From NCBI RefSeq assembly GCF_904066215.1, contig NZ_LR880474.1, positions 186,001-250,000 of the forward strand: 64,000 nt of DNA, in the 5' to 3' direction. The position numbers were made by a program, and so were the translations under genes. Below the pieces are notes generated by a model, which saw only the letters and a list, made by a program, of their open reading frames with translations, did not search any database and was not told where the DNA came from. This DNA is from Microbacterium sp. Nx66 (GTDB lineage: Bacteria; Actinomycetota; Actinomycetes; Actinomycetales; Microbacteriaceae). Below, piece by piece: positions 12,453 to 30,077 of this stretch. Each line of letters starts with the position of its first letter. The stretch's first letter is position 1.

Positions 12453-12517
12453 CCGGGGCCCTTCTCGATCTCGCGCGGCCCGGTGCTCGTCGAGCGGGGG
12501 CTCCTTCGCTCGGTCGA

Positions 12518-12527
12518 TGCTATGGCA
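12518..12527. promoter_or_regulatory. TGCTATAGCA-type operator, site 1
   Basis: TGCTATGGCA, one mismatch from the perfect palindrome. It is about 65 bp upstream of the GntR start, where a minus-strand promoter for that gene would lie. Probable autoregulatory site. Confidence 0.55.
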
Positions 12528-12564
12528 TGAGGCCGGGACTGGACAGGATCCGCGCAGTGCTAGA

Positions 12565-12574
12565 TGCTATAGCA
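12565..12574. promoter_or_regulatory. TGCTATAGCA operator, site 2 (MFS gene)
   Basis: A perfect 10-bp palindrome preceded by a TGCTAGA half-site, as at 28053. Its TATAGC could be the -10 element, with transcription starting near 12580 and the MFS gene at 12605. Confidence 0.7.
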
Positions 12575-12604
12575 AAACCCGAAACCGATGACGAAGGAGT
12601 TGTC

Positions 12605-13966
12605 ATGTCCGGCAGAGAGACGCTCGCGCAGGCGCGCGCCGCGGAGGACGCGGTGGGAGCCGCCGCCATGAAGAAGGCGATCTGGAGGCTGGGTCCGTTC
12701 CTCGGACTGCTCTACCTCGTCGCCTACATCGACCGGAACAACGCGGGCTTCGCGAAGCTGGAGATGACCGCCGCCCTCCAGATCACCGAGGCTGCCTTCG
12801 GGTTCGCGGCGGGCATCTTCTTCATCGGCTACCTGCTGTTCGAGGTGCCGAGCAACCTGCTGCTGGAGAAGTTCGGCGCCCGCAAGTGGATCGCGCGCAT
12901 CATGATCTCGTGGGGCATCGTCGCCGCGCTGACCGCCTTCGTGCAGGACGCGACGCAGTTCGCGATCGCGCGCTTCATCCTCGGGATCGCGGAGGCCGGA
13001 TTCTTCCCCGGCGTGCTGCTCTACCTCACGCTGTGGTTCCCGCGGCAGTACCGCACGCAGGTGCTCGCCGTCTTCGTGCTCTCGAACCCGATCGCCAACG
13101 CGGTCGCCGCGCCGCTGTCCGGCTGGATGCTGGAGCTGCACGGGCTGTGGGGGCTCGAGGGCTGGCAGCTCGTCTTCCTACTGCAGGGCGTCCCGGCCGT
13201 GCTCCTCGCGTTCGTCGTGTTCTTCTGGCTCCCCGACCGCCCCCAGGACGCGCGCTGGCTGAACCCCGCCGAGCAGCGCTGGATCACCGACACGCTCGCC
13301 GCCGAGACCCAGGCGACCGAGCAGCGGCACGGACGTCTTCGTCTCGGCGAGGTCTTCCGCAACGGGCGCCTCTGGACGCTCATCGTGCTCTTCTTCGGTG
13401 TCGTGTTCGGTGCGTACGGGCTGGGGATGTGGCTGCCGACCATCGTGAAGAGCATGGGCGACTTCTCGAACTCCACCACCGGGTGGCTCGTGGCGCTGCC
13501 GAACCTGTGCGCCGCCCTCGTGATGCTGCCGTGGGAGCGCGCCGCCCGGAAGCAGGGCAACATCCCGCTGCAGATCGGCATCACGCTCAGCATCACCGCC
13601 CTGTCGCTCATCGCGGCGGTCGCGGCGCAGGGCACACCGGTGCTCGCGCTCGCGGCGCTGTGCGTCGGGATGTCGGCGCTCTTCTCGACCACCCCGCTGT
13701 TCTGGAGCCTGCCGCCGATGGTGCTCACCGGCACGGCGGCCGCGGCCGGCCTCGCCTTCATCAACTCGGTCGGCAACCTCGCCGGCTTCGCGGGACCCTA
13801 CGCGATCGGCTGGATCAGCGAGACCACGGGGTCGGCGGTGTGGGGCCTGCTCCTCATCTCGGGGCTCACGCTGCTCGGGGCGACGATCGCCTTCGTGCTC
13901 AGCCGCCGCACGGACTTCACGACGGCGCCCGACCTCGGCGTCGAGGCGTCCACCGCCCGGCGATGA
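12605..13966 (+). CDS. MFS transporter, ACS (anion:cation symporter) type
   Basis: A 453-residue membrane protein with about 12 hydrophobic segments. The segment-1 signature YLVAYIDRNNAGFAK and GIAEAGFFPG are characteristic of the ACS family, which imports organic anions such as hexuronates, galactarate or phthalate by proton symport. ATG 12605 has a GAAGGAG ribosome site. It sits just downstream of the GntR/FCD operator, so it is a probable importer of the acid handled by this regulon. Confidence 0.88.
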   Translation: MSGRETLAQARAAEDAVGAAAMKKAIWRLGPFLGLLYLVAYIDRNNAGFAKLEMTAALQITEAAFGFAAGIFFIGYLLFEVPSNLLLEKFGARKWIARIMISWGIVAALTAFVQDATQFAIARFILGIAEAGFFPGVLLYLTLWFPRQYRTQVLAVFVLSNPIANAVAAPLSGWMLELHGLWGLEGWQLVFLLQGVPAVLLAFVVFFWLPDRPQDARWLNPAEQRWITDTLAAETQATEQRHGRLRLGEVFRNGRLWTLIVLFFGVVFGAYGLGMWLPTIVKSMGDFSNSTTGWLVALPNLCAALVMLPWERAARKQGNIPLQIGITLSITALSLIAAVAAQGTPVLALAALCVGMSALFSTTPLFWSLPPMVLTGTAAAAGLAFINSVGNLAGFAGPYAIGWISETTGSAVWGLLLISGLTLLGATIAFVLSRRTDFTTAPDLGVEASTARR

Positions 13967-14015
13967 CCGGGCCGGGTCGGCGGTCGTGACGAGAACGTGA
14001 CCCCGCCGGCCCGGT
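13966..14015 (+). terminator. Hairpin after MFS gene
   Basis: A 10-bp perfect GC stem (ACCGGGCCGG at 13966-13975, CCGGCCCGGT at 14006-14015) immediately after the MFS stop and before the next operator. Confidence 0.5.
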
Positions 14016-14046
14016 TCGCTCTAGACGCCTCTCCGCTTTTGCTACA

Positions 14047-14056
14047 TGCTATAGCG
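14047..14056. promoter_or_regulatory. TGCTATAGCA-type operator, site 3 (oligopeptide-type ABC operon)
   Basis: TGCTATAGCG, one mismatch, preceded by a TGCTAC half-site. It is 43 bp upstream of the substrate-binding protein gene. Confidence 0.68.
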
Positions 14057-14098
14057 CAACACCCTTACCCGAAGCACCACCCGACCTTGGAGGCACCC

Positions 14099-15634
14099 AT
14101 GTCGCGTCGTCGTGTTCGGCTCGGCGGAGCAGCAGTGCTGCTGACCGCCGCGCTCATCACCGCTGGTTGCAGCACCTCATCCACCCCCGACGGCCAGGCG
14201 CAGGAGGGCGGCACGCTCACCGTCGCCGCCGCGCAGGGCATCCCGCAGCTCAATCCCGCCATCCGTACGTTCGCGTGGGAGGAGGTGCTGTTCCCGCTGC
14301 TGTGGAACGGCCTCACCACGACCGACGAGTCCGGCGAGGTCGTCGGCGATCTCGCCGAGAGCTGGGAGGCCTCCGATGACCAGAAGACCTGGACGTTCAC
14401 CCTCCGCGACGGGGTGACGTTCTCGAACGGTGAGGACTTCACCGCCGACGACGCCGTGGCCGCCTTCGACTACTACCTCGACCCGGAGACGGCGACGCAG
14501 GAGAAGAACAAGATCTCGATGGTCACCGACGTCGCCGCGCCGGACGAGAAGACCGTCGTGGTGACGCTGTCCGAGCCCATCGCGACCTTCCCCGCGGGCA
14601 TCGTCTGGGTGAAGATGATCGACGTCGACGCGCTCGACACGATCGACAAGGAGCCCATCGGCACCGGGCCGTACGTCGTGGACGCCTTCACGCCCGACGA
14701 CAGCCTCACCCTCGTCCCCAACCCGGAGTACTTCGGCGAGGCGCCGGCGCTCGACGAGATCACGATCGTGAAGGCCGCCGAGTCCACCGCCGCCGTCACC
14801 GGCCTCCGCTCCGGCGACATCGACGTGCTGTGGTCGGTGCCGCAGGGGGATGTGGCGGGTCTGGAGGGCGGCGACATCGCCCTGGTGAAGCCCGAGAACC
14901 CGAGCCAGTGGCCCTCGTGGGAGATCGACACGACCTCGCCGCCCTTCGACGACGTGCGCGCCCGGCAGGCCCTGGCCTACGCGATCGACCGCGAGGCCAT
15001 CCTCGACGCCGCCTACTACGGCCAGGGCACGGTCTCGCCGACGAACAACGCGCTCGGCGAGGTGAACCCGTGGTTCGGGGGCGAGCTGACCGACTACTCC
15101 TACGACCTGGACAAGGCGAAGGAGCTGTTCGCCGAGGCCGGGGTGACCGAGGGCAGCACGCTCACCTGGTGGGGCGTGGCCGGACAGTACCCGGAGTGGA
15201 ACACGAGCGGCGAGATCCTGCAGGCGAGCCTGAAGGAGATCGGCATCACGCTGAAGATCGACAACAACGACATCGGCACCTGGGTCGACGCGTTCTACCC
15301 CGCGGGCAAGAGCTACCCCGGGTACATCGTGCCGAACTTCCAGTCCACCCCGCCCGAGCCGGCCTACTCGCTGAACTTCTACCTGGAGGGGCGGTGCGAG
15401 TGCAACTGGGTCGACCCCGACTTCCAGACGGCGTTCGCCGACGCCGTCGCCGAGCCGGACGAGACCGCGCGGGCCGAGAAGTGGGGCACGGTGCAGACCA
15501 TCATCAACGAGCAGGTGCCGCTCATCGTGCCGCTGCAGTCGACGGTCGTCACCGCCACCAGCACGGCGGTCGACGGTGTGTGGGTCGAGGGCGGCGGACA
15601 GCTGCACCTCGAGGGCGCGCAGCTGAAGGGCTGA
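14099..15634 (+). CDS. Oligopeptide/oligosaccharide ABC transporter substrate-binding lipoprotein (SBP family 5)
   Basis: A 511-residue solute-binding protein. The lipoprotein signal ends before Cys24 (ITAGC). ATG 14099 has a GGAGG ribosome site; an upstream in-frame ATG at 13997 lacks one and would spoil the signal peptide. Family 5 proteins bind peptides, nickel or, in many polysaccharide-utilising bacteria, oligosaccharides. The flanking beta-helix, sugar-acid and enolase-superfamily genes favour an oligosaccharide ligand. First gene of a six-gene operon. Confidence 0.88.
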   Translation: MSRRRVRLGGAAVLLTAALITAGCSTSSTPDGQAQEGGTLTVAAAQGIPQLNPAIRTFAWEEVLFPLLWNGLTTTDESGEVVGDLAESWEASDDQKTWTFTLRDGVTFSNGEDFTADDAVAAFDYYLDPETATQEKNKISMVTDVAAPDEKTVVVTLSEPIATFPAGIVWVKMIDVDALDTIDKEPIGTGPYVVDAFTPDDSLTLVPNPEYFGEAPALDEITIVKAAESTAAVTGLRSGDIDVLWSVPQGDVAGLEGGDIALVKPENPSQWPSWEIDTTSPPFDDVRARQALAYAIDREAILDAAYYGQGTVSPTNNALGEVNPWFGGELTDYSYDLDKAKELFAEAGVTEGSTLTWWGVAGQYPEWNTSGEILQASLKEIGITLKIDNNDIGTWVDAFYPAGKSYPGYIVPNFQSTPPEPAYSLNFYLEGRCECNWVDPDFQTAFADAVAEPDETARAEKWGTVQTIINEQVPLIVPLQSTVVTATSTAVDGVWVEGGGQLHLEGAQLKG

Positions 15635-15635
15635 C

Positions 15636-16598
15636 GTGGTCCTCTCCGTCCTCCGGCGGGTGGCGATCAGCATCGCGATGCTGATCGCCACCTCGCTCCT
15701 CGTCTTCGTCGTGCTCCGGCTGCTGCCGGGCGACCCCGTCATCACCCGCCTCGGCTCGACGCCGGGCGTGGATGCCGAGACCATCGCCCGGCTCCGGGAG
15801 GAGGCCGGCCTCGACGCCCCCGTCATCGAGCAGTACCTGCGGTGGATCGGCGGCGTCTTCACGGGCGACTTCGGCCAGTCCTACTTCAACCAGTACTCGG
15901 TGACGGAGCTCATCGCGCAGCGCCTGCCCGCGACGCTGGAGCTCACGCTCATCGGGGTGCTGCTGGCCGTGCTCATCGCCACCCCGGCTGCCGTGTTCGC
16001 CTCACTGCGTCCGCTCGGCGTGGTCGACAGGGTGCTCACCGCGATCTCGACCGCGGGCATGGCCCTTCCGCAGTTCCTCATCGGCATCGTGCTCATCGTC
16101 GTGTTCGCCGTGCAGCTCAAGGTGCTGCCGGCCCGCGGCTACACGCCGTTCGCGGAGGACCCAGCCGAGAACCTCGTGCGCATGATCCTCCCCGGCCTCA
16201 CCCTCGCCTTCGCGGCGGCGCCGCTGCTCATGCGCTTCCTCCGGGCCTCGATGGTCGAGGTGCTGGACGCCCCCTACATCCGCACCGCGAAGGGCAAGGG
16301 ACAGTCGGCGAGTGGCGTCGTGCTCGGCCACGCGCTCCGCAACGCCCTGATCCCCGGACTCACCATGCTCGGCCTGATCGTCGGCTACACCCTGGGCGGC
16401 GTGGTGATCGTGGAGTACGTGTTCGGCGTCCCCGGACTCGGCTCGCTCGCGATCGACGCGGTCTTCAAGCGGGACTACGCGGTGCTGCAGTCGGTCGTGC
16501 TGCTGATCTCCGCGATGTTCATCCTCACCACGCTCATCGTCGACCTCCTCTACGGGGTGCTCGATCCGCGTCTTCGTGCAAGGAGCAGCCGTGGCTGA
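15636..16598 (+). CDS. ABC transporter permease, DppB type
   Basis: A 320-residue permease. The start is GTG 15636, one base after the previous stop. It has the family's N-terminal helix, the large periplasmic loop with LPGDPVITRLG, and six hydrophobic segments. It works with the DppC-type permease that follows. Confidence 0.9.
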   Translation: MVLSVLRRVAISIAMLIATSLLVFVVLRLLPGDPVITRLGSTPGVDAETIARLREEAGLDAPVIEQYLRWIGGVFTGDFGQSYFNQYSVTELIAQRLPATLELTLIGVLLAVLIATPAAVFASLRPLGVVDRVLTAISTAGMALPQFLIGIVLIVVFAVQLKVLPARGYTPFAEDPAENLVRMILPGLTLAFAAAPLLMRFLRASMVEVLDAPYIRTAKGKGQSASGVVLGHALRNALIPGLTMLGLIVGYTLGGVVIVEYVFGVPGLGSLAIDAVFKRDYAVLQSVVLLISAMFILTTLIVDLLYGVLDPRLRARSSRG

Positions 16599-17439
16599 CA
16601 CCCTCACCCTCGCGCTGCGCTCCGCGCGCCCCCGTCGGCGGTTCGCCGTCGCCTCCTGGATCCCGCTGGGGCTGCTGGCGATCATCGTCCTCGCCTGCGT
16701 GCTCGCCCCGCTCCTGGCCCCGTACGACCCCGCGGCCCAGTCGTCCGACCGGTTCGCCGGTCCCTCGGCCGCGCACCTCTTCGGGACCGACGAGCTGGGC
16801 CGCGACCTCTTCAGCCGCGTGCTCTACGGCGGCCAGCTCACCGTGTTCATCGCCGGGGGCGCGACGCTCGTGGCCATGGTCCTCGGGATCGCCTGGGGTA
16901 TGGCGGCGGCGTTCGGACGCGGCTGGGTCGATGAGATCCTCATGCGTCTCGCCGACACGGTCATGGCGATCCCGCAGATCCTGTTCGCGCTCGTCTTCAT
17001 CTCCGCGTTCGGCGCCGACCCCGTCAAGCTCGCCGTCATCATCGGGGTGCTCCTCACGCCGACCACCGCGCGGCTCGTGCGGTCGTCGGTGCTCAGCGAA
17101 CTGCAGGAGGACTACTTCACGGCCGCTGTGGCGTTCGGCTCGACCCGGCGCCGTCTGCTCTTCGCCGAGGTGCTGCCGAACGCCAAGGGGCCGATCGTCG
17201 TGCAGGCGGCCATCAACGCCGCCAACGCGATCCTCCTGGAGGCGTCGATGAGCTTCGTCGGGCTCGGCATCGCGCCGCCCGAGGCCACCTGGGGCACGCT
17301 CGTGCAGCAGGGCTACCAGAAGATGTACCAGTCCATCGGGTACGTGCTGTTCCCCGCCCTGTTCATCTTCGTCACCATCTGGCTGCTCAACGTGCTCGCC
17401 GACCAGTTCGGCGGCGATCGGAAGGGGAGGGGCCGATGA
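16591..17439 (+). CDS. ABC transporter permease, DppC type
   Basis: A 282-residue permease. GTG 16591 is chosen over in-frame GTG 16576 because AGGAG at 16581-16585 lies 5 nt upstream of it; this gives an 8-bp overlap with the DppB gene. It contains the HLFGTDELGRDLFSRVLYGG signature of DppC/OppC proteins and the membrane domain with an EAA-like loop. Confidence 0.9.
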   Translation: MADTLTLALRSARPRRRFAVASWIPLGLLAIIVLACVLAPLLAPYDPAAQSSDRFAGPSAAHLFGTDELGRDLFSRVLYGGQLTVFIAGGATLVAMVLGIAWGMAAAFGRGWVDEILMRLADTVMAIPQILFALVFISAFGADPVKLAVIIGVLLTPTTARLVRSSVLSELQEDYFTAAVAFGSTRRRLLFAEVLPNAKGPIVVQAAINAANAILLEASMSFVGLGIAPPEATWGTLVQQGYQKMYQSIGYVLFPALFIFVTIWLLNVLADQFGGDRKGRGR

Positions 17440-19199
17440 CCGACCTCACGCCCGTCCTGCAGGTGCAGGATCTCACCGTCTCCTACGGCGACGTCATGCC
17501 CGTCCAGGGCATCACGTTCGCGGTGCGGCCCGGTGAGCGCATCGGCCTCGTCGGCGAATCCGGCTCCGGCAAGTCGCTCACGGCGCTGTCGATCATGCGG
17601 CTGAACGACGGGGCGACCCTGGGCGGCAGCATCCGGCTGCGCGACCGCGAACTGCTCACGCTGAGCCCGCGGGAGATGACCCGCGTGCGCGGAGGCGAGA
17701 TCGCGATGGTCTATCAGGACCCGATGTCGTCGCTGAACCCGGTCCGCACGATCGGGCACCAGCTCGTGGAGGCGATCCGGCTGCACGACCGGGTCTCGGC
17801 GGCGGCCGCCCGCGCGCGGGCCGTCGAGCTGCTGACCGAGGTCGGGGTGCCGCTGCCCGAGGAGCGTCTGGGCCAGTACCCGCACGAGTTCTCCGGCGGG
17901 ATGCGGCAGCGCGTCATGATCGCGATGGCCATGTCCTCCCGGCCCGCCGTGCTCATCGCGGACGAGCCGACCACGGCCCTCGACGTGACGACGCAGTCCC
18001 GGATCATCGACCTCCTCGATCGGCTCGCGGAGGACCACGGGACCGCGGTCGTGCTCATCACGCACGACCTCGGCGTCGCCGCCGGGTTCTGCGAGCGCAT
18101 CCACGTGATGCGGCACGGGCGCGTGGTCGAGGAGGGGCCGGTCGACCGCATCTACACGGCCCCGGAGCATCCGTACACGCAGGCGCTGCTCGGCGCGGTC
18201 GTCGACCTCACGGTGGACGTGCAGCAGCCCATCCGCACCGCCGCGGAGGTGCTCGAACGCGGGACGGAGCCGCTCGCCGAGGCCGGGTCGATCAGCGCGG
18301 TGGATCGGGCGCGGGAGTCCGGCGACGTGCTGGTGGACGTGCAGGGCGTCTCGAAGGTGTTCACGCTCGGCTCCGGGCGCCGGGTGACCGCGGTCGACGA
18401 CGTGTCGTTCCAGATCCGGCGCGGCGAGACGGTCGGGCTCGTCGGCGAGTCGGGCTCCGGCAAGTCGACCGTGTCGAAGGCCGTGCTCGCGCTCGGCGGC
18501 ATCGACGGAGGCACGGTCGTCTTCGACGGGCAGCGCCCGCACGACCTCCGCGGCGAGGAGCTGCGGCGGCTGCGCAAGCGCATGCAGATGGTGTTCCAGG
18601 ACCCGTTCTCGGCCCTGAACCGGCGGCAGACCGTCGCGCAGATCATCGAGGCGCCGCTGCGCGCCCACGGCATCGGCACCCGGGCCTCCCGCGCCGAGAA
18701 GGTGCGCGAGACCATGCACCGCGTGCGTCTGGACGAGGAGTTCGCGCACCGGCTGCCGCGCTCGATGTCCGGCGGGCAGTGCCAGCGCGTGTCCATCGCC
18801 CGGTCGCTCGTGCTCGAGCCGGAGTTCCTCGTGCTCGACGAATCGGTGTCGGCGCTCGACGTGTCGATCCAGGCGCAGGTTCTCAATCTGCTGCGGGAGC
18901 TGCAGGCGGAGCTCGGCCTCACCTACCTCTTCATCAGCCACGACCTGGCGGTGATCCGGTACATGTCCTCGACGGTCGCCGTGATGCAGCAGGGCCGCAT
19001 CGTCGAGATCGGGGCGCGCGACGCGCTCTTCGCGAACCCGCAGCACGAGTACACGCGCGGGCTCATGGCGGCGATCCCCATCGCCGACCCGGTCCTCGAG
19101 CGCCGACGGCGCGCGGAGGCCGCGGCGCTCTGGCAGGCCCAGGGCGGGCAGACGGGCGCGGTCCCTGCCGCGCTCGCAGGACGAGGAGGACGACGATGA
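17436..19199 (+). CDS. Fused dipeptide-type ABC ATPase (DppD-DppF fusion)
   Basis: A 587-residue protein with two complete ATPase domains in one chain. Each has Walker A GESGSGKS, a FSGGMRQR or MSGGQCQR signature, a Walker B (LIADEP, LVLDES) and the family's C-terminal YTQALLGAV or YTRGLMAAI tail. One gene thus supplies both ATPases of the importer. The ATG overlaps the DppC stop and the stop overlaps the next start. Confidence 0.93.
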   Translation: MTDLTPVLQVQDLTVSYGDVMPVQGITFAVRPGERIGLVGESGSGKSLTALSIMRLNDGATLGGSIRLRDRELLTLSPREMTRVRGGEIAMVYQDPMSSLNPVRTIGHQLVEAIRLHDRVSAAAARARAVELLTEVGVPLPEERLGQYPHEFSGGMRQRVMIAMAMSSRPAVLIADEPTTALDVTTQSRIIDLLDRLAEDHGTAVVLITHDLGVAAGFCERIHVMRHGRVVEEGPVDRIYTAPEHPYTQALLGAVVDLTVDVQQPIRTAAEVLERGTEPLAEAGSISAVDRARESGDVLVDVQGVSKVFTLGSGRRVTAVDDVSFQIRRGETVGLVGESGSGKSTVSKAVLALGGIDGGTVVFDGQRPHDLRGEELRRLRKRMQMVFQDPFSALNRRQTVAQIIEAPLRAHGIGTRASRAEKVRETMHRVRLDEEFAHRLPRSMSGGQCQRVSIARSLVLEPEFLVLDESVSALDVSIQAQVLNLLRELQAELGLTYLFISHDLAVIRYMSSTVAVMQQGRIVEIGARDALFANPQHEYTRGLMAAIPIADPVLERRRRAEAAALWQAQGGQTGAVPAALAGRGGRR

Positions 19200-21412
19200 C
19201 CACCATGGATCAGGAGACGGGGCCCTCGACGGACGCCGCGGGCGCCGGCGCGGCGGTGCGGTCGACCGGCCGCCGCGCGCTCATGGCCGGGCTCGGCGCG
19301 GTCGCGCTCGGCACGGCGGGCGTTCTCGCGAGCACCGCACCGGCGCAGGCCGCGCCGGTCGCCGCCGGCGCCAAGGACGTCACGCGAGCGGAGTCCGTCG
19401 CCGACCTGGCCCGTCTCCGCGCCCGCAACGGCGAGGTGGCGGTCGTCGCCGGGTACCGGAAGCCCGGCGACGCCGGACTGCTCGTGTACGTGGGCAGCGA
19501 GAACGCGAAGACCAAGGTCAACGGCGGCACCGTGATCGCGGGGAAGCACGACACCCGGTGGGTGCTGCAGCACGACGGCACCGTCGACTTCCGGGTCTTC
19601 GGTATCACAGGACCGGAGAAGCCGGCCGACGATGCGCTCGCGGCGATGGTGAACGATCCCCGCATCCGCCGCATCGAGGCGAGCACCGACCTCCTGTTCC
19701 GGCGTCGGCATCGCTTCACCCGGTCGTACGTCGAGATCGACTTCGGCGGACACGTCATCACGACGGACGGCATCGAGAAGAACACCCACGACAACCCGTT
19801 CGGTGCCGTGATGTTCTTCACCGGAGTGCCGAAGGACGTCACGGTCGAGCACGCGCTGGCCGAGGCCTGGCCGGAGTTGACCGACGCGGTCGCCGTGCCG
19901 GACGCGTCCCGGTTCCCCGTGGACTCGTGGTGGGCGGTGCAGTGCGACCCCGTCGCCGGAGGAGGGGCTGATGAGCGCGAGCTGCAGCGGTTCGTGCAGG
20001 TGACGCAGCAGATCGACGGCACCCACATCCGCATCGATTACCTCAACGGCTGGCCGCTCGACACGGGGCGGAAGCTCATCTGGCGGCAGATGGCACCGGT
20101 CGCGGGCGTGCGGATCGCGAACATGCGGTTCCTCGGTGCCGGTCCCTTCGACGGTCCCACCGACGGCTCCTTCCCCGACTCTCGCGAGCTCACCGGCTCC
20201 CACCCGATCGCCTTCGAGTACGCGATCCACTGCGACGTCGCCGACGTGCACGCGAGCCGCACCTGGTGGCCCGTGATCATGCGGCGGTGGAACACGCACT
20301 TCACGACGGAGCGCTGCTCGGTCGAGAACCCGCCGACGGTGTTCTACGGCGGTGCGGGGTACCTGACGCAGCAGATCTACAGCCTCTACGGCCGGGTGAG
20401 CGACTGCACGTCGTCGAACGCCCGGCACCTGAACGACCTCACCGCCAGCGCCTACTGCCTCGTCGAGAACTGTCATGGCGACGGCGACGACCAGGGCGGC
20501 AATCCCTTCACCACGCACGGCCAGTACGAGCACGACCTCACCTTCATCGGCAACTCGGGGCTGATGGACATCGCCAACTCCGGCGCGCAGTGGGGCACGG
20601 CCGCCAAGCGCATCACGGTGCGCGATCACGTCTGCTCCTGGTTCGTCGCCGGGACGAAGATCAGCGATCTGACGCTGGAGAACGTACGCGTGATCGGCCG
20701 CTCGACCTTCGACCCGCAGGCGACCATGACCATCAACGCCGACGGTGCGCAGGTGCGAGGGTGCACCGCGGGACTGTTGGCGATCGGCCAGCGGTCGCAG
20801 CGCTCGTCGCGGCCGACCGTCATCCAGGACTCCACCTTTGCGCTGCCCAAGGATCAGGTGCTCGTGCAGACCCCGGTCACGGCTCCCGTCCGCTTCGTGG
20901 ACTGCACGATCACCGGGATCGACGGGGTCAAGGCGCGCGGGTCTGGGCCGGTCGAGTTCGTGGACTGTCGTCTCAGCGGCCCGGCGGCCGGCGCCCCGTT
21001 CGAGGTCGGCGCATCGAAGGTGACGATCCGCGGCGGATCCGTGCGCGACGTGCGCCTGACCGCGACAGCGGTGCGGGATCAGCTCATCGCTCTGGACGGG
21101 GTCGAGCTGTCCACGGAGCGCGCGGACGGGGCTCTGCTCAGCAGGGCCGCAGGCGCCGGCATCGTCACCTGGCGGGTGAGCGGGGTGACCTCGACAATGC
21201 CGAAGGGCGCTGCCCACCTCGACATCGGCGCGGGCGTCAATCACGCCCGCGTCACCGGCAGCCAGTTCGTCGGCGGACGACTGCGGCTGGCGAACGGTTT
21301 CGCCGAGCCGTCGACGCTGCTCTACAGCGACACCGTCGAACGCGGCGTCGAGACCGCACTGCCGGAAGCCGGACCGCGCGTCGTCATCGCGGACGTGCTG
21401 GCGAGCGCGTGA
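19196..21412 (+). CDS. Exported right-handed beta-helix protein, paralogue of 8263
   Basis: A 738-residue secreted protein. The start on an ATGA overlap has GAGGAGGA upstream. The Tat-like signal STGRRALMAGLG ends near AQAAPV. It matches the protein at 8263 along its whole length, with shared GGAGYLTQQIY, NARHLNDxTASAYCLVENC and HVCSWFVA. Placed in the importer operon, it probably processes or binds the oligosaccharide outside the cell. A lyase or glycosidase activity cannot be assigned from the sequence. Confidence 0.75.
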   Translation: MTTMDQETGPSTDAAGAGAAVRSTGRRALMAGLGAVALGTAGVLASTAPAQAAPVAAGAKDVTRAESVADLARLRARNGEVAVVAGYRKPGDAGLLVYVGSENAKTKVNGGTVIAGKHDTRWVLQHDGTVDFRVFGITGPEKPADDALAAMVNDPRIRRIEASTDLLFRRRHRFTRSYVEIDFGGHVITTDGIEKNTHDNPFGAVMFFTGVPKDVTVEHALAEAWPELTDAVAVPDASRFPVDSWWAVQCDPVAGGGADERELQRFVQVTQQIDGTHIRIDYLNGWPLDTGRKLIWRQMAPVAGVRIANMRFLGAGPFDGPTDGSFPDSRELTGSHPIAFEYAIHCDVADVHASRTWWPVIMRRWNTHFTTERCSVENPPTVFYGGAGYLTQQIYSLYGRVSDCTSSNARHLNDLTASAYCLVENCHGDGDDQGGNPFTTHGQYEHDLTFIGNSGLMDIANSGAQWGTAAKRITVRDHVCSWFVAGTKISDLTLENVRVIGRSTFDPQATMTINADGAQVRGCTAGLLAIGQRSQRSSRPTVIQDSTFALPKDQVLVQTPVTAPVRFVDCTITGIDGVKARGSGPVEFVDCRLSGPAAGAPFEVGASKVTIRGGSVRDVRLTATAVRDQLIALDGVELSTERADGALLSRAAGAGIVTWRVSGVTSTMPKGAAHLDIGAGVNHARVTGSQFVGGRLRLANGFAEPSTLLYSDTVERGVETALPEAGPRVVIADVLASA

Positions 21413-21446
21413 CGGACGGCATCATGGACATCAGGGAGGACCACGC

Positions 21447-22835
21447 GTGAACGACACCGCAGCGGCGACGCACCTCGGAGACCGCATCCGCATCCCCCGC
21501 ACACGGGCGCGCATCGGCGTCGCCCGGCGCGACATCACCCCGCCCGTCGGCATCCGCGCCAAGAACTGGGGACCGGCCGACTGGGAGCGCTCCGAGGGGG
21601 CGCACCGGCCGTTCGAGCTGACCGCGCTCACGGTAGTGGCCGCGGACGAGCGGCCGCGGGTGCTGCTCGCGGTGGACGGCACGTGGTGGCGTCGAGTGGC
21701 CGACGAGCAGGGCGTGCGCGGGGCGATCCTCGACGGTCTGGGCCTCGAGCCCGATCAGCTCATGCTCTCCCTCTCGCACACCCACGCGGGGGCCGTGCTG
21801 TGCGCCGCGGACGCGCATCTGCCGGGCGGCGAGCTCATCCCCGGGTACCTGGAGGCTCTCGCTGCCGCGGGTGTCGCGGCCGGGCGCGAGGCGCTGGAGA
21901 CCGCGCGACCGGGACTGATCGAGTGGACCACGGGCACCTGCACCCTCGCGGCGGAGCGGGAGCTCGACCTCGACGGCCGCGCGCTCGTCGGCTACAACCC
22001 GCAGGGCACCGCCGACGACACGGTGACGATCGGCCGGATCAGCATCGACGGAGAGGTGCGGGCGACGCTGGTGAACTACGCCTGTCATCCGACGACCCTG
22101 GCCTGGCAGAACCGGGAGGTGTCGCCGGACTACGTCGGCGCGATGCGCGAGATCGTGGAGGCCGCCACCGATGCACCGTGCCTGTTCGTGCAGGGGGCCT
22201 CGGGCGAGCTGGCCCCGCGGGAGCAGTACACCGGCGACGTCGCGGTGGCCGACCGGCACGGACGTTCACTCGGGCACGCGGTGCTCGCGGCGCTGGACGG
22301 GCTTCCGGTGCCGGGCGAGGAGCTGACGCTGGACGGGGTCGTGGAGTCGGGTGCTCCGCTCGCGATCTGGACCGGGACTCCGGCGGACGGCGGCGAGGAG
22401 GCGGCGGGAGTCGTCTCGTCGGTCGAGCTGCCGCTGCGCGACCTGCCCACCCTGGACGAGCTCGCCGAGGAGTGGAAGGACATCGACCCCCGGTCGCGGG
22501 AGGAGCGTCTCGGACGGGCCCGGAACCTCCGCGACGGCTACATCGAGGGGCCGACCGTGTCGCATCCGGTGTGGGCCTGGCGGCTCGGTGACGCCGTGAT
22601 CCTGGGGCATCCGGGCGAGGCGTATTCCCGGCTGCAGACGACACTGCGGGAGCGGTTCCCGGAGACGCCGATCGTGGTCATGAACCTCACGAACGGTCCG
22701 GGCTTCGTGTACCTCCCGACCCGCGAGGCCTACGACCGCGGTGCCTATCAGTCCTGGCAGACGCCCCTGGCCCCCGGTGCCCTGGAGCTCCTGGAGGCCC
22801 ATGCCGTGTCGTTGGTGGCCGGACTGCGGGGGTAG
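21447..22835 (+). CDS. Neutral/alkaline ceramidase-like hydrolase
   Basis: A 462-residue protein with features of the neutral/alkaline non-lysosomal ceramidase N-terminal superfamily: ARRDITPPVG near the start, a probable metal-binding SHTHAG (~110), NYACHPTTL (~213) and an EAYSRL segment in the last third. The start is GTG 21447 with AGGGAGGA. No signal peptide is seen, so it is probably cytosolic. Members in sugar loci often have unknown amide or ester substrates, so ceramide is not implied. Confidence 0.6.
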   Translation: MNDTAAATHLGDRIRIPRTRARIGVARRDITPPVGIRAKNWGPADWERSEGAHRPFELTALTVVAADERPRVLLAVDGTWWRRVADEQGVRGAILDGLGLEPDQLMLSLSHTHAGAVLCAADAHLPGGELIPGYLEALAAAGVAAGREALETARPGLIEWTTGTCTLAAERELDLDGRALVGYNPQGTADDTVTIGRISIDGEVRATLVNYACHPTTLAWQNREVSPDYVGAMREIVEAATDAPCLFVQGASGELAPREQYTGDVAVADRHGRSLGHAVLAALDGLPVPGEELTLDGVVESGAPLAIWTGTPADGGEEAAGVVSSVELPLRDLPTLDELAEEWKDIDPRSREERLGRARNLRDGYIEGPTVSHPVWAWRLGDAVILGHPGEAYSRLQTTLRERFPETPIVVMNLTNGPGFVYLPTREAYDRGAYQSWQTPLAPGALELLEAHAVSLVAGLRG

Positions 22836-22840
22836 CCCCT

Positions 22841-22899
22841 TTCGAATCGCCCACTTTGCTCCATATCCGGCCGAAATCGAACCAGTTGCGCGATTCGAA
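22841..22899. repeat. Family B palindromic repeat, copy 1 (59 bp)
   Basis: Inverted arms TTCGAATCGC (22841-22850) and GCGATTCGAA (22890-22899) around a CCGGCCGAAAT core. The second copy, of identical length, is at 26843. Confidence 0.75.
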
Positions 22900-22910
22900 C
22901 CGGATAGAGT

Positions 22911-22920
22911 TGCTATAGCA
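22911..22920. promoter_or_regulatory. TGCTATAGCA operator, site 4 (SDR/dehydratase operon)
   Basis: A perfect palindrome 23 bp upstream of the SDR start. If TATAGC is the -10 element, transcription starts near 22926 and leaves a short leader with a GAGGAGA ribosome site. Confidence 0.72.
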
Positions 22921-22943
22921 AATCCCCGAGGTAGAGGAGAGAC

Positions 22944-23702
22944 ATGACCGCGCGCCCCGTCGCCATCGTCACCGGAGGCTCGGCCGGCATCGGCTGGGAG
23001 ATCGGACAGCGACTCTCCGCGGACGGCTACCTCGTCGTCGCGACCGACCGAGTCCCCGGGCTCACCGCGGGTGAGAACCCCGCCGAGATCCTGTGGCGGG
23101 AGCTCGACGTCACCGACCACGCCGCCGTCGACCGGGTCTTCGGCGAGATCGAGGCGGAGCTCGGGCCCATCGAGGTGCTCGTGAACAACGCCGGGATCCA
23201 GCGGCACCGCGGGATCGAAGACCTCACGTGGGATGAGTGGTCCACGGTCGTCGACGTGAACCTGCACGGGGTGTTCTCCGCGCTCCAAGCTGCAGGGAAG
23301 CGGATGCTCGACCGGGGCGAGGGCCGCATCGTCAACATCTCGTCCATCTCCTCGCGAGGCTCCGCGGGGCGGGCGCCGTATGCCACGACCAAGGCCGCCG
23401 TCATCGGCCTCACCTCCACGGCCGGAGCGGAGTGGGCGTCGCGGGGCGTGCGCGTCAACGCCGTGGCGCCCGGCTACGTCGACACCGGGGTGTTCCGGCA
23501 GGGCGTCGAGCAGGGGACGCTGAGTCTCGACACGATCCTGTCCCGCATCCCCGCGAAGCGCCTGGCCGACGCGAGTGAGATCGCCGCGGCCGTGAGCTTC
23601 CTCGTGTCGGACCAGTCGCGCTACATGAACGGTCAGACGCTGTACGTCGACGGCGGCTTCATGGTGGACTACGGCGTGCCCCTCGCGAAGAAGCCCGAAT
23701 GA
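22944..23702 (+). CDS. SDR family oxidoreductase (FabG-like)
   Basis: A 252-residue classical SDR: TGGSAGIG (10-17), NNAG (81-84), Tyr146/Lys150 and PGYVDT. In an operon with an enolase-superfamily dehydratase it is a good candidate for a sugar dehydrogenase or 2-keto-3-deoxy-sugar-acid dehydrogenase. Its stop overlaps the dehydratase start. Confidence 0.9.
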   Translation: MTARPVAIVTGGSAGIGWEIGQRLSADGYLVVATDRVPGLTAGENPAEILWRELDVTDHAAVDRVFGEIEAELGPIEVLVNNAGIQRHRGIEDLTWDEWSTVVDVNLHGVFSALQAAGKRMLDRGEGRIVNISSISSRGSAGRAPYATTKAAVIGLTSTAGAEWASRGVRVNAVAPGYVDTGVFRQGVEQGTLSLDTILSRIPAKRLADASEIAAAVSFLVSDQSRYMNGQTLYVDGGFMVDYGVPLAKKPE

Positions 23703-24775
23703 CCACCGTCGCCCGGATCGACACGGCCACGGCGGTCCTCCCCCTTCCGGCACCGCTGCAGCTCGGTGCGATGACGGTCACGCGACGGGAGTATTCCGCG
23801 GTGCAGGTGACGGCGGACGACGGCACCACCGGGGTCTCCTACTGCCTATCGCGCGAGGCCCCGATGGCGGAGATCCTCGAGCGCCTGGTGGCTCCGCACG
23901 CAGTGGGGCTCGACGCCGACGACCCGGCGGCCGCGTGGGACCGGATGCTCCGCGGCAGTGCGATCGTCGGACGGGTGGGGCTCGTGCGGCGGGCGATCGG
24001 TCTCGTCGACATCGCCCTGTGGGACATCGCGGCCCGTCGTGCCGGCGTGCCGCTGTGGACCCTGCTCGGCACCGGTGACGCCCCGCGGGAGGGGATGCTC
24101 GTCGCCGCGTATCCCTCTCCGCAGCGGACGCCGCGGGAGGTCGCCGATGAGGTGCTCGCGCAGGCGGACGGCTGGGCGCAGGTGAAGATCTCCCGCATTC
24201 CCGATCCGGCATACATGCGCGAACTGCTCGCGATCCTCGGCGCCGAGCTGCCGTCCGCGACCGGTCTCGTCGTGGACGTGGGCTTCGGCTGGCCCGATGC
24301 GGAGGCTGCAGTGGCGGAGGTCGCGCAGTGGGGCGACCCGCGCCTGGCCTGGCTGGAGGACCCGCTGCTCCCCGAGGACGCGGCCGGCGTGGCCCGGATC
24401 CGCCGGGAGACCGGATTGCCGGTGGCGGTGGGCGACGAGGTGACGGACCCCGCCGTGCTCCGGGCTCTCGTGGAGGTCGGCGAGGTCGATGCCCTCCGCC
24501 TCGACGTCGTCGCGATCGGCGGCATCACGCCCGCCAGGGAACTCATCTCCTGGGCGGCAGAGCGCGGCGTCCCGGTGTCCGGACACGTGTACCCCGAGGT
24601 CACGGCGCACCTCGGCATCCAGGTGGAGACCTTCGCCCGCGGGGTGAATCCCTACGACCCCGCGCCCTCGTTCGTGACGGGCGGTCCGGAGTTCGCCGGG
24701 ACCGTGACGCCGCCTGCAGCTCCGGGGCTCGGCTTCGGCCTCGATCCCGCCGTCTTCCGATTCGAGAGGGACTGA
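23699..24775 (+). CDS. Mandelate racemase/muconate lactonizing enzyme family dehydratase
   Basis: A 358-residue enolase-superfamily enzyme. Visible active-site residues: Lys163 (KIS), metal ligands Asp193, Glu220 (WLEDP) and Glu247 (GDEV), and a His296/Asp269 dyad typical of the mandelate racemase subgroup. Such enzymes dehydrate sugar acids to 2-keto-3-deoxy acids. The second lysine of a KxK motif is replaced by serine, as in part of the subgroup. Flanking SDRs and a regulon-linked FAH hydrolase suggest an aldonate or deoxy-aldonate substrate; the exact sugar is not deducible. Confidence 0.85.
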   Translation: MTTVARIDTATAVLPLPAPLQLGAMTVTRREYSAVQVTADDGTTGVSYCLSREAPMAEILERLVAPHAVGLDADDPAAAWDRMLRGSAIVGRVGLVRRAIGLVDIALWDIAARRAGVPLWTLLGTGDAPREGMLVAAYPSPQRTPREVADEVLAQADGWAQVKISRIPDPAYMRELLAILGAELPSATGLVVDVGFGWPDAEAAVAEVAQWGDPRLAWLEDPLLPEDAAGVARIRRETGLPVAVGDEVTDPAVLRALVEVGEVDALRLDVVAIGGITPARELISWAAERGVPVSGHVYPEVTAHLGIQVETFARGVNPYDPAPSFVTGGPEFAGTVTPPAAPGLGFGLDPAVFRFERD

Positions 24776-24776
24776 C

Positions 24777-25580
24777 ATGACAGACTCCCCGCGTAGCGTG
24801 GTGGTGACCGGCAGCGGCAAGGGCATCGGGCGCGCGGTCGCCGAGCGGCTCACCGCCGACGGCTGGATCGTGGTCGGGCTCGAACGCTCGCCCGGCTCCG
24901 GGACCGTCGAGGACGGCATCGTCGCCGAGGTGGTGCTCGGCGACGCCTCCGACCGCACCGCCCATCAGCGCGCGGCCACCGCGGCACGCGCCAGGGCACC
25001 GCTGGCCGGCTGGGTGAACAACGCCGGCATCACGAAGCGCACGCCGCTGCACGAGCTCGACGAGACGGTCGTGCGCGAGATCGTCGACATCAACGGCTTC
25101 GGCTACCTCTGGGGCTGCTCGACGGCCGTGTCCGCGTTCCTCGATCAGGGCGAGGCGGGCGCGATCGTGAACATCGGGTCGATCCACGGTCGATCGAGCT
25201 TCGTGGACCACGCCGCCTACGAGTTCACGAAGGGCGGCATCGACGCCCTGAGCCGCAGCGTCGCGGTGACATATGGCGGATTGGGCATACGGGCGAACAC
25301 CGTCGCGCCGGGCGGCGTGCGCACTCCGCATCTGGAGGCACAGATCGCCAGGGCCGCCGACCCCGAGGCGGAGGAGCGGCTGCTCGCGGAGGGCCCGCCG
25401 ATGGGACGCATCGCCCGCGCGGAGGAGGTCGCCGCGGTGACGGCGTTCCTGCTCTCCGACGAGGCCCCCTACCTCTCCGGCCAGTCCATCGCGGTCGACG
25501 GAGCCTGGACCGCGTCGTTCGGGGACATCGCGCTCGATCCCGCGCTGCGGGAGCGGTTCGACGCGCCGCCCGCTCCCTGA
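24777..25580 (+). CDS. SDR family oxidoreductase
   Basis: A 267-residue SDR: TGSGKGIG (11-18), NNAG (81-84), Tyr148/Lys152. It starts one base after the dehydratase stop, so it is in the same operon. Candidate for oxidation of the 2-keto-3-deoxy acid, or of the sugar itself, as the partner of the SDR at 22944. Confidence 0.88.
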   Translation: MTDSPRSVVVTGSGKGIGRAVAERLTADGWIVVGLERSPGSGTVEDGIVAEVVLGDASDRTAHQRAATAARARAPLAGWVNNAGITKRTPLHELDETVVREIVDINGFGYLWGCSTAVSAFLDQGEAGAIVNIGSIHGRSSFVDHAAYEFTKGGIDALSRSVAVTYGGLGIRANTVAPGGVRTPHLEAQIARAADPEAEERLLAEGPPMGRIARAEEVAAVTAFLLSDEAPYLSGQSIAVDGAWTASFGDIALDPALRERFDAPPAP

Positions 25581-25640
25581 GCCCCACCACGCCGGTGTCC
25601 CTGGTCCGTGCGACGATCCGCTCGTCGACGGGAGAACGGG

Positions 25641-26837
25641 ATGCGCGGGGAAGCGACGGTTCTGCACGCCGACCTCGATGCGTTCTACGCCTCGGTCGAG
25701 CAGCGTGATGCGCCGGAGCTCCGCGGGCGCCCGGTGATCGTCGGCGGCGGGGTCGTGCTGGCCGCGAGCTATGAGGCGAAGGCACGGGGCGTCCGCACGG
25801 CGATGGGCGGCCGGCAGGCACGAGAGCTGTGCCCGGACGCCGTCGTCGTGCCGCCGCGGATGGAGGCCTACTCCGCGGCCAGCAAGGACGTCTTCCGCAT
25901 CTTCCGTGACACCACTCCGCTCGTGGAGGGTCTCTCGATCGACGAGGCGTTCCTCGAGGTCGGCGGTCTGCGTCGCATCGCCGGAACTCCCGAGGCCATC
26001 GCCGTGCGGCTGCGGGAGCGGGTGCGCGCCGAGGCGGGCCTGGCCATCTCGGTCGGCGTCGCCCGCACGAAGTTCCTCGCCAAGGTCGCGAGTGCGGTCA
26101 GCAAGCCCGACGGACTCCTCATCGTCGAGCCCGACCGGGAGGAGGAGTTCCTGCTGCCGCTTCCCGTCGAGCGGCTGTGGGGCGTCGGCGCCGTGACGGC
26201 GGAGAAGCTGCACCGGTACGGCATCCGCACGGTCGGCGAGCTCGCGGAGCTCGAGGCCGCGACGGCGGAGCGGATGCTCGGGAAGGCGACCGGAGCGCAC
26301 GTCCTTGCTCTCGCCCGCCTGCGGGATCCGCGCCCCGTGGACACGACGCGGCGCCGCGGGTCGATCGGGTCGCAGCGGGCGCTCGGGACCCGTCCCCGGT
26401 CGACCGACGAGCTCGACGTCATCCTCACCCAGATCGTCGACCGGCTCGCGCGGCGTCTCCGCGACGGCGGCCGCGTGTGCCGGACGGTCGTGCTGCGGCT
26501 GCGCTTCGGCGACTTCACGAAGGCCACCCGCTCGCGGTCGCTGCGAGCGCCGACCGACCGCACCGCCCTGCTGCTCGCCGTCGCCCGCACGCTCCTCGCC
26601 GCGGCGCAGCCCGAGATCAGCGGTCGCGGGCTCACTCTGCTCGGCCTCTCGTTCACCCAGCTCGATGCCGCGGACAGCGTCCCGCCCGAGCTGCCGATCG
26701 ACTGGGGCGACGAGTCCCGCCTCGATACCGTGCTCGACACGCTCCGTGACCGCTACGGCTCCGCCTCGGTCTCCCGCGCCGCCCACCTCGGCCGCGACCC
26801 CGGTTGGTCGTCCCCGGTGCTTCCGGAGCACCACTGA
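25641..26837 (+). CDS. dinB: DNA polymerase IV (Y-family)
   Basis: A 398-residue translesion polymerase. Catalytic acidic residues are visible: Asp11 in HADLDAFYASVEQ, and Asp101/Glu102 in SIDEAFLEV. The little-finger domain follows a helix-hairpin-helix region (LWGVGAVTAEKL). ATG 25641 has a GGGAGA ribosome site; an in-frame GTG at 25608 lacks one. It has no pathway link to its catabolic neighbours and is bracketed, with the SDR operon, by the two family B repeats. Confidence 0.93.
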   Translation: MRGEATVLHADLDAFYASVEQRDAPELRGRPVIVGGGVVLAASYEAKARGVRTAMGGRQARELCPDAVVVPPRMEAYSAASKDVFRIFRDTTPLVEGLSIDEAFLEVGGLRRIAGTPEAIAVRLRERVRAEAGLAISVGVARTKFLAKVASAVSKPDGLLIVEPDREEEFLLPLPVERLWGVGAVTAEKLHRYGIRTVGELAELEAATAERMLGKATGAHVLALARLRDPRPVDTTRRRGSIGSQRALGTRPRSTDELDVILTQIVDRLARRLRDGGRVCRTVVLRLRFGDFTKATRSRSLRAPTDRTALLLAVARTLLAAAQPEISGRGLTLLGLSFTQLDAADSVPPELPIDWGDESRLDTVLDTLRDRYGSASVSRAAHLGRDPGWSSPVLPEHH

Positions 26838-26842
26838 CCCCT

Positions 26843-26901
26843 TTCGAATCGCCTGACTGGTGCCATTTCGGCCGGAAATACAGCCGATCGGGCGATTCGA
26901 A
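26843..26901. repeat. Family B palindromic repeat, copy 2 (59 bp)
   Basis: Arms TTCGAATCGCC (26843-26853) and GGCGATTCGAA (26891-26901). It has the same length and core as the copy at 22841 and lies between the convergent ends of dinB and the NTF2-like gene. Confidence 0.75.
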
Positions 26902-26906
26902 GCGGG

Positions 26907-27257
26907 TCAGGCCTTGAGCATCGACGCCCGGGAGATCACGCCGTCGACCACGTCGAAGGTCGCGATGGTCTCCGTGGCGACGCCGGCGTTGATGACCTGC
27001 TCCTGCGCGACGACCCAGCGGGAGCCGAACAGGACGCTCGTGTCGATCACGCAGGAGAGCTCCGGGTTCTGCAGCCGCGGCTCGTAGAAGGCACGGATCG
27101 CGGCCGAGCCGACGAGGGGTTCCGGCGCGACCCCGGTGACCACGGCATCGTCGGCATATGTCGCGACGAAGGCGTCGAGGTCGTGCGCGTTGAAGGCGTC
27201 CAGCTGCGCCTGCACGGTGTCGAGAGCGGAACGGTCGAGGGTGGTGCGGTCAGTCAA
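26907..27257 (-). CDS. Nuclear transport factor 2-like (SnoaL-type) protein
   Basis: A 116-residue protein with the NTF2/SnoaL cone-fold pattern (LDAFNAHDLDAFVATYADDAVV near the start, IRAFYEP, a final beta hairpin). The start is a TTG at 27257 with GGAGGAG six bases upstream, overlapping the SDR stop by 8 bp. Members bind or transform small metabolites, and the operon with an SDR supports an enzymatic accessory role. Substrate unknown. Confidence 0.8.
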   Translation of the reverse strand: MTDRTTLDRSALDTVQAQLDAFNAHDLDAFVATYADDAVVTGVAPEPLVGSAAIRAFYEPRLQNPELSCVIDTSVLFGSRWVVAQEQVINAGVATETIATFDVVDGVISRASMLKA

Positions 27258-27999
27258 TGCGAACTCCTCCGTTGACGTCGTAGGTGGCTCCGGTGATGAA
27301 GCGGGCCCGCTCCGAGGCGAGCGACGCGATGATCCAGGCGACGTCCTCCGGCTGACCGAAGGCGCCGAGGGGGATGCCCGACTCGAGCTTCGCGCGGCCT
27401 TCACCCTGGAGCTGATCGGTGATCGCGCTGGCGACCGGTCCGGGGGTGACGGCGTTGACGCGGATGCCCTCGGCGGCGAGGTGCCGGGCGAAGCTGCGGG
27501 TGATCGCGAGGATCGCCCCCTTGCTGGCCGCGTAGTGGATGCCCGTCTGCAATGCGCCGACCTGCCCGGCGATCGAGGCGATGTTGATGACCGAGCGGTC
27601 GCCGTCGGCAGCCCGGAGCAGGGGGAGCGCCGCGCGGGTGAGCAGGAAGGTCCCGCGGGCGTTCGTCTCCAGGACGAAGTCCCACTCCTCGATGTCGATC
27701 TCGGGATACGGGGTGTACGGGCACACGCCGCCGTTGTTGACGAGGACGTGCAGGTCGCCCCAGGCGGCCGTGACCTCGGCGATGAGGGCGGCGATGGAGT
27801 CCGGTTCGCGGAGGTCGAGGCGCGACACGTGCACGTCCGGGGAACCGGCGGCACGGCACTCCTCCGCCACGCGGACGGCTTCGGCCTCGCGTCCGGCGTA
27901 GGTGATCCAGAGGGCGACGCCCTCGCGGGCGAGTTCGAGGGCGGCGGCGGTTCCGATGCCGGAACTGGCGCCCGTGACGAGTGCGCGGCGAACAGTCAT
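27250..27999 (-). CDS. SDR family oxidoreductase
   Basis: A 249-residue SDR: TGASSGIG (9-16), a variant NNGG (88-91), Tyr156/Lys160, and the C-terminal GATYDVNGG. Its promoter carries a TGCTATAGC motif, so it belongs to the GntR/FCD regulon and is divergent from the hydroxyacid dehydrogenase at 28077. Likely a sugar or keto-acid dehydrogenase. Confidence 0.9.
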   Translation of the reverse strand: MTVRRALVTGASSGIGTAAALELAREGVALWITYAGREAEAVRVAEECRAAGSPDVHVSRLDLREPDSIAALIAEVTAAWGDLHVLVNNGGVCPYTPYPEIDIEEWDFVLETNARGTFLLTRAALPLLRAADGDRSVINIASIAGQVGALQTGIHYAASKGAILAITRSFARHLAAEGIRVNAVTPGPVASAITDQLQGEGRAKLESGIPLGAFGQPEDVAWIIASLASERARFITGATYDVNGGVRID

Positions 28000-28006
28000 G
28001 CCTAAA

Positions 28007-28016
28007 CGCTATAGCA
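28007..28016. promoter_or_regulatory. TGCTATAGCA-type operator, site 5 (SDR, minus strand)
   Basis: TGCTATAGCG on the minus strand, eight bases upstream of the SDR start at 27999. Only a very short leader is possible if TATAGC is the -10 element. Confidence 0.65.
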
Positions 28017-28058
28017 AGAAGCGGTCTCGCGACAGCGGCTGTACGCGAGCTTGCTAGA

Positions 28059-28068
28059 TGCTATAGCA
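28059..28068. promoter_or_regulatory. TGCTATAGCA operator, site 6 (hydroxyacid dehydrogenase)
   Basis: A perfect palindrome within TTGCTAGATGCTATAGCA, the extended form also seen at 12561. It is nine bases upstream of the ATG at 28077, so the transcript would be almost leaderless. Confidence 0.72.
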
Positions 28069-28076
28069 TCGCATCC

Positions 28077-29051: not shown

Positions 29052-29061
29052 GAGGACCCTC

Positions 29062-29919: not shown

Positions 29920-29927
29920 GGCCTGTG

Positions 29928-29970
29928 CCCGGGGCACGGTTCCTTTCGCTGAGTGCAACCGTGTCCCGGG
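29928..29970. terminator. Hairpin between convergent FAH and SMP-30 genes
   Basis: Arms CCCGGGGCACGGTT (29928-29941) and AACCGTGTCCCGGG (29957-29970) form a 14-bp stem with one mismatch and a 15-nt loop, just after the FAH stop. Likely terminator. Confidence 0.5.
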
Positions 29971-30000
29971 TAGAGGCCTCTCCCGGGCACCCCGCGGCCA

Positions 30001-30075
30001 CAGGCATCCGCGCCGGCTCAGGCGGGTGGAGGGGAAAGGCGCCTGATCTCGCGCGAGCGCCTGAACCCGCGCGAG
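30001..30075. repeat. Family C repeat, copy 1
   Basis: Begins CAGGCATCCGCGCC, has an internal TCAGGCG, and ends GCGCCTGAACCCGCGCG. It matches copies at 37704 and 37808. It fills the gap before the convergent SMP-30 gene, which ends at 30078. Confidence 0.65.
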
Positions 30076-30077
30076 GG

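Follow-up and report, generated by a model that had tools for sequence, protein, structure and literature searches.

What reads the 10-bp palindrome TGCTATAGCA that recurs in front of one set of catabolic operons in Microbacterium sp. Nx66, and to what effect? Within the 64-kb stretch of this genome that we analysed (the window), a sequence-only reading had noted three perfect and three one-mismatch copies and had named as their probable reader a GntR regulator with an FCD domain, encoded at 11802-12452. The evidence assembled here points to the six sites being operators of that protein, through which it would repress its own gene, transport genes and sugar-acid catabolic operons; we estimate the probability of this reading at about 85%. 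In the mechanism that we propose, a regulator dimer would read TGCTATAGCA where it lies on the -10 element or the start point of each promoter and would keep RNA polymerase off these operons until a pathway acid, bound by the metal centre in its FCD domain, releases it.

A palindrome concentrated in one catabolic cluster

Scanning the window located all six copies as described, exact at 12565, 22911 and 28059 and with one mismatch at 12518 (TGCTATGGCA), 14047 (TGCTATAGCG) and 28007 (CGCTATAGCA), and found no other match to TGCTATAGCA with zero or one mismatch in the 64 kb. Allowing two mismatches gave 11 matches against a shuffle mean of 3.95, and 0 of 100 shuffles reached 11. The sequence-only reading had proposed a scan of the complete genome with one mismatch allowed as a check on the motif. 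In the 3.46-Mb genome (3457 kb, two contigs) all three exact copies fall within the cluster, as do six of the seven matches with at most one mismatch, so the motif is not randomly spread; the binomial chance of at least six of seven genome matches lying inside 15.55 kb of 3457 kb is 5.8e-14. The six sites are all intergenic, in a region (10951-30926) where, by our gene starts, 769 of 19,976 bases are non-coding. The reversed string gave 1 exact match and 145 with one mismatch; being CpG-rich, it makes a poor control, and we discarded it. No report of TGCTATAGCA as an operator was found in the open-access literature, a search that left subscription papers and regulon databases outside its scope.

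The seventh genome match, a copy of TGCTATGGCA at C1:561818 (L111:10001), falls between a gene of TetR type, judged by its translation, and a near-palindrome, TGGACAGACGTCCA; it is probably a chance match.

The suggestion that a site precedes every operon of the region held for six operons but failed for the SMP-30 lactonase gene at the cluster edge, which has none. The related suggestion that dinB and purL lack the motif fits the absence of further sites from the window, but dinB starts 27 bp after the SDR2 gene on the same strand, and purL was not located. We rejected the site-less dinB as evidence of specificity, since it may be read through from SDR2.

The palindrome follows the regulator across genomes

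A search for GntR-type helix-turn-helix (HTH) domains returned a single protein in the window (E 1.3e-37; next-best 0.037), bearing out the claim that the FCD regulator is its sole GntR protein. The domain forms an N-terminal winged helix and is followed by the C-terminal FCD domain. Among 295 genomes of the same genus, 37 carry the regulator (E<=1e-40) and 44 have the exact palindrome anywhere. It occurs in 36 of the 37 carriers versus 8 of the 258 non-carriers (Fisher p 2.7e-37, a value that overstates independence, the genomes being related).

A comparison of named genomes covered the best 80 of 208 relatives, comprising 39 orthologous loci at 54-100% identity and 41 distant ones at <=43%. 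The orthologues come from Microbacterium and its kin, Cellulosimicrobium, Oerskovia, Isoptericola and Leifsonia, with one record labelled Sphaerisporangium; many of their genomes also belong to the 295-genome set, and the protein is 100% identical in Microbacterium sp. LCT-H2. Among these best 80, 39/39 orthologues have, no more than 300 bp ahead of their start, a site that is exact (27) or one mismatch away, versus 0/41 distant FCD genes. Counted over the loci, exact sites number 82 vs 0, rising to 143 vs 4 if one mismatch is allowed, and the runner-up palindrome of equal GC content reaches 6 in the orthologue set against 82 for TGCTATAGCA. An order-wide search found exact sites at three orthologues of 58-59% identity, whose records are also in the named-genome comparison, and nothing within one mismatch of TGCTATAGCA at 24 other FCD loci (33-41% identity, ~3.6 kb each).

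In two Leifsonia loci (L181, L183) and one metagenome-assembled genome (MAG; L182), the regulator sits amid other neighbours. The Leifsonia loci place beside it a divergent gene whose translation reads as Gfo/Idh/MocA-type, and the enzymes of the window are matched there at only 33-42% identity, away from the regulator. All three loci keep an exact site 170-186 bp before the regulator start despite the changed neighbours, which indicates that the motif follows the regulator. Together with the co-occurrence counts, these loci support the proposed reading of the sites by the FCD regulator.

Conservation by operon was scored over 37 Microbacterium loci (the window and L075-L110) and 13 loci of other genera. 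For six kinds of operon, every scorable case in Microbacterium has a site (GntR 37/37, MFS 15/15, substrate-binding protein (SBP) 15/15, SDR1 33/33, SDR3 32/32, 2-hydroxyacid dehydrogenase (2HADH) 33/33), and for four of these kinds so does every scorable case in the other genera (GntR 13/13, SDR1 11/11, SDR3 8/8, 2HADH 8/8). One-mismatch forms recur in relatives at the same promoters, TGCTATGGCA at the regulator's own and TGCTATAGCG at that of the SBP gene, which argues for their function and hints at a range of affinities, with the regulator's own promoter perhaps bound more weakly.

Promoter placement is consistent with repression

The sequence-only reading had taken TATAGC within the palindrome as the -10 box, so that the bound regulator would occlude the promoter. 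We no longer take TATAGC as the -10 of every promoter and distinguish three layouts instead. At the SDR3 and 2HADH promoters the first ATG follows the palindrome by 7-9 nt in 61 of 63 sites, a distance that leaves no room for a ribosome-binding site, so both promoters would be leaderless. Their -10 element would lie inside the palindrome, as TAGC(A/G)T or TATAGC; of the two, TAGCAT/TAGCGT, which has the form TANNNT and stands 6-7 nt ahead of the ATG, is no worse a fit than TATAGC. The SDR1 promoter has a conserved TANACT directly upstream of the predicted operator, which would thus cover the start point. In the MFS and SBP promoters the palindrome is preceded, at a distance of 19 bp, by a conserved T(G/A)GAC(A/G) box, and the -10 candidates are weak, the one spaced 17 bp from the box being a poor GATGCT/CATGCT. 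Occlusion fits each of these layouts even though TATAGC is only one possible -10, and the overlap of the sites with -10 or +1 makes repression by promoter occlusion likely.

Three sites carry, as had been noticed, an additional upstream TGCTA half-site at -7 (12558, 14040, 28052). The extended pattern TGCTANNTGCTATNGC has three exact matches in the genome, which are those three sites, and its next match has two mismatches. Across the scored loci the half-site is specific to the same three promoters, with TGCTA at -7 in 13/14 MFS, 15/15 SBP and 29/32 2HADH sites and in 0/35 GntR, 0/23 SDR1, 0/31 SDR3 and 0/8 sites of the 21447 gene. Its mirror image occurs at 6/35 GntR-assigned sites, at least some of which are MFS-type sites seen in the opposite orientation. 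Another subunit or dimer probably binds this direct half-site, 7 bp upstream. In the GntR regulons of Suvorova et al. 2015, palindromes are likewise accompanied by weaker half-site boxes 7-12 nt from the centre, and divergent promoters have two sites, one per operon (PMC4494728); the main text of that paper does not contain TGCTA.

A probable variant operator code

The DNA code proposed for this regulator would depart from that usual in the GntR family, with C3/G8 for G3/C8 alongside His for Arg at residue 45. TGCTATAGCA has CT...AG and lacks the GntR signature NyGTNxACNy given in PMC4494728; it also lacks the GT/AC pair of the FadR-subfamily consensus TKGT/ACMA described there. The same paper names NanR and BioR as exceptions to the signature, so a CT...AG operator does not remove the regulator from the family. 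An Arg45 contact to G3 is called typical of the family in PMC7797058; in our set residue 45 is His in 40/40 regulator sequences and base 3 of the operator is C. The presumed metal ligands D131/H135/H181/H203, assigned by comparison with Atu1419 (PMC7797058), are likewise present in 40/40.

Atu1419 of Agrobacterium fabrum, an FCD protein of the VanR subgroup, is described in PMC7797058 as recognising a 10-bp palindrome with a TATA core that recurs in the promoters of its own and target genes, in one case over a -10, and as having a three-His metal site; all this resembles the system proposed here. Its palindrome is ATGTATACAT, in which Arg45 contacts G3 and a changed G3 abolishes binding, in contrast to the C3 and His45 of our cluster. 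The metal site has Asn137 where ours has Asp131, the pathway and effector differ, and Atu1419 is a tetramer able to loop DNA.

Another FCD lineage has the same palindrome. This lineage, which is ~32% identical to the cluster regulator and has Pro45, occurs (E<=1e-55) in only 3 of the 295 genomes, G087, G169 and G288, and all three belong to those with an exact site but no orthologue of the regulator. In two of them the palindrome is part of ATTTGCTATAGCAAAT, in the promoter that separates the FCD gene from a divergent one; the third has it ahead of a gene that reads in translation as transporter-like, ~0.8 kb past the regulator. G288 holds a second exact site elsewhere. Neighbours at these loci (L145:10001, L227:2242, L228:2896) appear AtuA- and RraA-type from their translations.

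We also searched the DNA in front of FCD genes for palindromic 10-mers built on a TATA core, allowing one mismatched pair, a design that the asymmetric form at the regulator's own promoter escapes. Base 3 is C in 38/38 sites at His45 orthologues and in 2/2 sites of the Pro45 lineage, and G in 9/9 sites at Arg45 genes, a small sample in which the orthologue sites are not independent. By the HTH profile, 65 distant FCD proteins have Arg (55), Gln (8), Ala (1) or Pro (1) at residue 45; the scan found no palindrome at the Gln, Ala or that Pro protein, nor at most Arg45 genes. We see the odds as even that these proteins form a distinct FCD-GntR class of DNA code, one that has abandoned the Arg45-G3 contact and reads C3/G8 palindromes such as TGCTATAGCA, with His45 here, Pro45 in the second lineage, and covariation between residue 45 and one base pair.

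Weighing the alternatives

Several observations weigh against the regulator-operator assignment. The SMP-30 gene, which adjoins the hydrolase gene in relatives, has a site in 0/22 Microbacterium loci and 0/3 of other genera. For dinB the count is 4/20. The two genes that follow the ABC genes in the window score 13/23 and 12/21 (beta-helix gene) and 27/33 and 11/11 (21447 gene), counts partly lowered by match boundaries that cut operons. Of the eight regulator-less genomes with an exact site, the second FCD lineage accounts for three and five are unexplained. One carrier, G141, has no exact site; the stretch separating its 2HADH gene from its regulator gene contains two one-mismatch sites, CGCTATAGCA and TGCCATAGCA. 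G060 (C20), G197 (C12:67899) and G210 (C9) have exact sites beyond the stretches examined. Finally, the genome of the window has 19 FCD matches, another of which could in principle bind the sites.

That last point would lead to a different reader, such as one of the 18 further FCD matches, and the ~32%-identical lineage shares the palindrome in three other genomes. The genome of the window yielded no member of that lineage, the motif tracks orthologues of the window's regulator, and among the 18 FCD genes of this genome that could be placed (all but L242) His45 occurs only in the window's, all of which makes another reader scarcely credible. Instead of an operator, the palindrome might be part of the core promoter of this pathway, such as a special -10 or the site of an alternative sigma factor: it overlaps the -10, it keeps a set distance of 7-9 nt to the ATG at two promoters, and within the genus the regulator cannot be told apart from the pathway, the dehydratase gene occurring in 34/295 genomes, every one among the 37 carriers. 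We consider this highly improbable given the two-fold symmetry of the motif, its varying position relative to the -10, its persistence with the regulator in Leifsonia and the MAG where the neighbours differ, and its recurrence with the second FCD lineage. If the regulator does read the sites, it could still act as an activator or dual regulator, as the upstream box and weak -10 candidates of the MFS and SBP promoters might suggest. This too is unlikely, since 0/6 sites lie upstream of a plausible -35 and the sites overlap -10/+1, and the FCD proteins Atu1419 and HypR are described as repressors (PMC7797058, PMC6608401). We thus favour operators for a repressor; judged from sequence, the system would be a regulon of a known kind, local and autoregulated by its FCD-GntR protein, in which the operator code is a variant one.

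Cluster genes and the likely pathway

Table 1. Genes and predicted operators of the cluster (positions in the window)
Feature	Position	Strand	Remarks
SDR, regulator operon	10951..11805	-	overlaps regulator stop; Pfam adh_short
FCD-type GntR regulator, proposed repressor	11802..12452	-	216 aa; His45 in recognition helix; Pfam GntR + FCD above cut-off
Predicted operator, regulator's own promoter	12518..12527	-	TGCCATAGCA read towards gene
Predicted MFS operator	12558..12574	+	half-site TGCTA 12558-12562, palindrome 12565-12574
MFS transporter	12605..13966	+	Pfam MFS_1; sugar-acid type by best NCBIfam model, below cut-off
Predicted ABC-operon operator	14040..14056	+	half-site 14040-14044, palindrome 14047-14056
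ABC transporter genes	14099..19199	+	SBP family 5, two permeases, double ATPase; peptide/nickel type by family
Secreted beta-helix protein	19196..21412	+	start 19196, overlaps ATPase gene end; from translation and predicted model
462-aa protein	21447..22835	+	
Predicted SDR1-dehydratase-SDR2 operator	22911..22920	+	TAGAGT (TANNNT) directly upstream
SDR1, enolase-superfamily dehydratase, SDR2	22944..25580	+	dehydratase 23699-24775
dinB	from 25608	as SDR2	
SDR3, then SnoaL-like gene	27250..27999	-	SnoaL-like gene 26907-27260
Predicted SDR3 operator	28007..28016	-	7 nt before ATG; predicted leaderless promoter
Predicted 2HADH operator	28052..28068	+	half-site 28052-28056, palindrome 28059-28068; 8 nt before ATG; predicted leaderless promoter
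2HADH + FAH-fold hydrolase	28077..29919	+	28077-29051 and 29062-29919
SMP-30 lactonase	30078-30926		after hydrolase; no site

A non-phosphorylating deoxy-sugar route ends in a 2,4-diketo-3-deoxy acid hydrolase. As in the L-2,4-diketo-3-deoxyrhamnonate hydrolase pathway, SDR dehydrogenases, a lactonase, an enolase-superfamily dehydratase and a FAH-fold hydrolase are clustered here, assigned by family rather than activity. The hydrolase matches PDB 8gsr (E 6.7e-56) but reaches 255.6 bits against the cut-off of 500 of the curated NF053535 model. Its chemistry is likely related to the diketo-deoxyrhamnonate route. In genome G255 the dehydratase gene is remote from the regulator and appears as two overlapping matches in different frames (C1:3976679-3977571), a pseudogene or a sequencing error.

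Two genes trail the ABC genes, the beta-helix gene by an overlap and the 21447 gene after a further 34-bp gap; neither product (the first taken as 18779-21412, which contains 19196-21412) has a Pfam, NCBIfam or PDB match. The 19196-21412 protein has, in its translation, a leader of twin-arginine type and a C-terminal half predicted as beta-helix (AlphaFold pLDDT 55.6 overall, better in that half). The best fold match of the model, a phage capsule depolymerase (E 4.2e-4, TM 0.15-0.16), would tell no more than that the fold is a beta-helix. Cellulosimicrobium and Oerskovia loci have two copies of this gene, whose product possibly represents a new polysaccharide-cleaving family. The 462-aa protein is 63-65% identical in three loci of other genera, where it stays beside the regulator.

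A 60-bp intergenic element, TTTCGAATCGC-N39-GCGATTCGAA, stands directly after the 21447 gene (22840-22899) and again between the convergent dinB and SnoaL-like genes (26842-26901). It has 12 copies in the genome, each of 60 bp though 46-71 bp were permitted, and could be a two-way terminator or a repeat resembling repetitive extragenic palindromes (REP).

Implications

With the six predicted operators, a catabolic cluster found in Microbacterium and other Actinobacteria would have its regulator, operators and regulon fully assigned, in a form open to experiment. The base read by Arg45 in Atu1419 differs here along with that residue, which would represent a natural specificity change in a very large regulator family. 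If the code holds, a His45Arg substitution would move the preference of the regulator from C3 (TGCTATAGCA) to G3 (NNGTATACNN), and residue 45 could help to predict the operators of uncharacterised FCD proteins.

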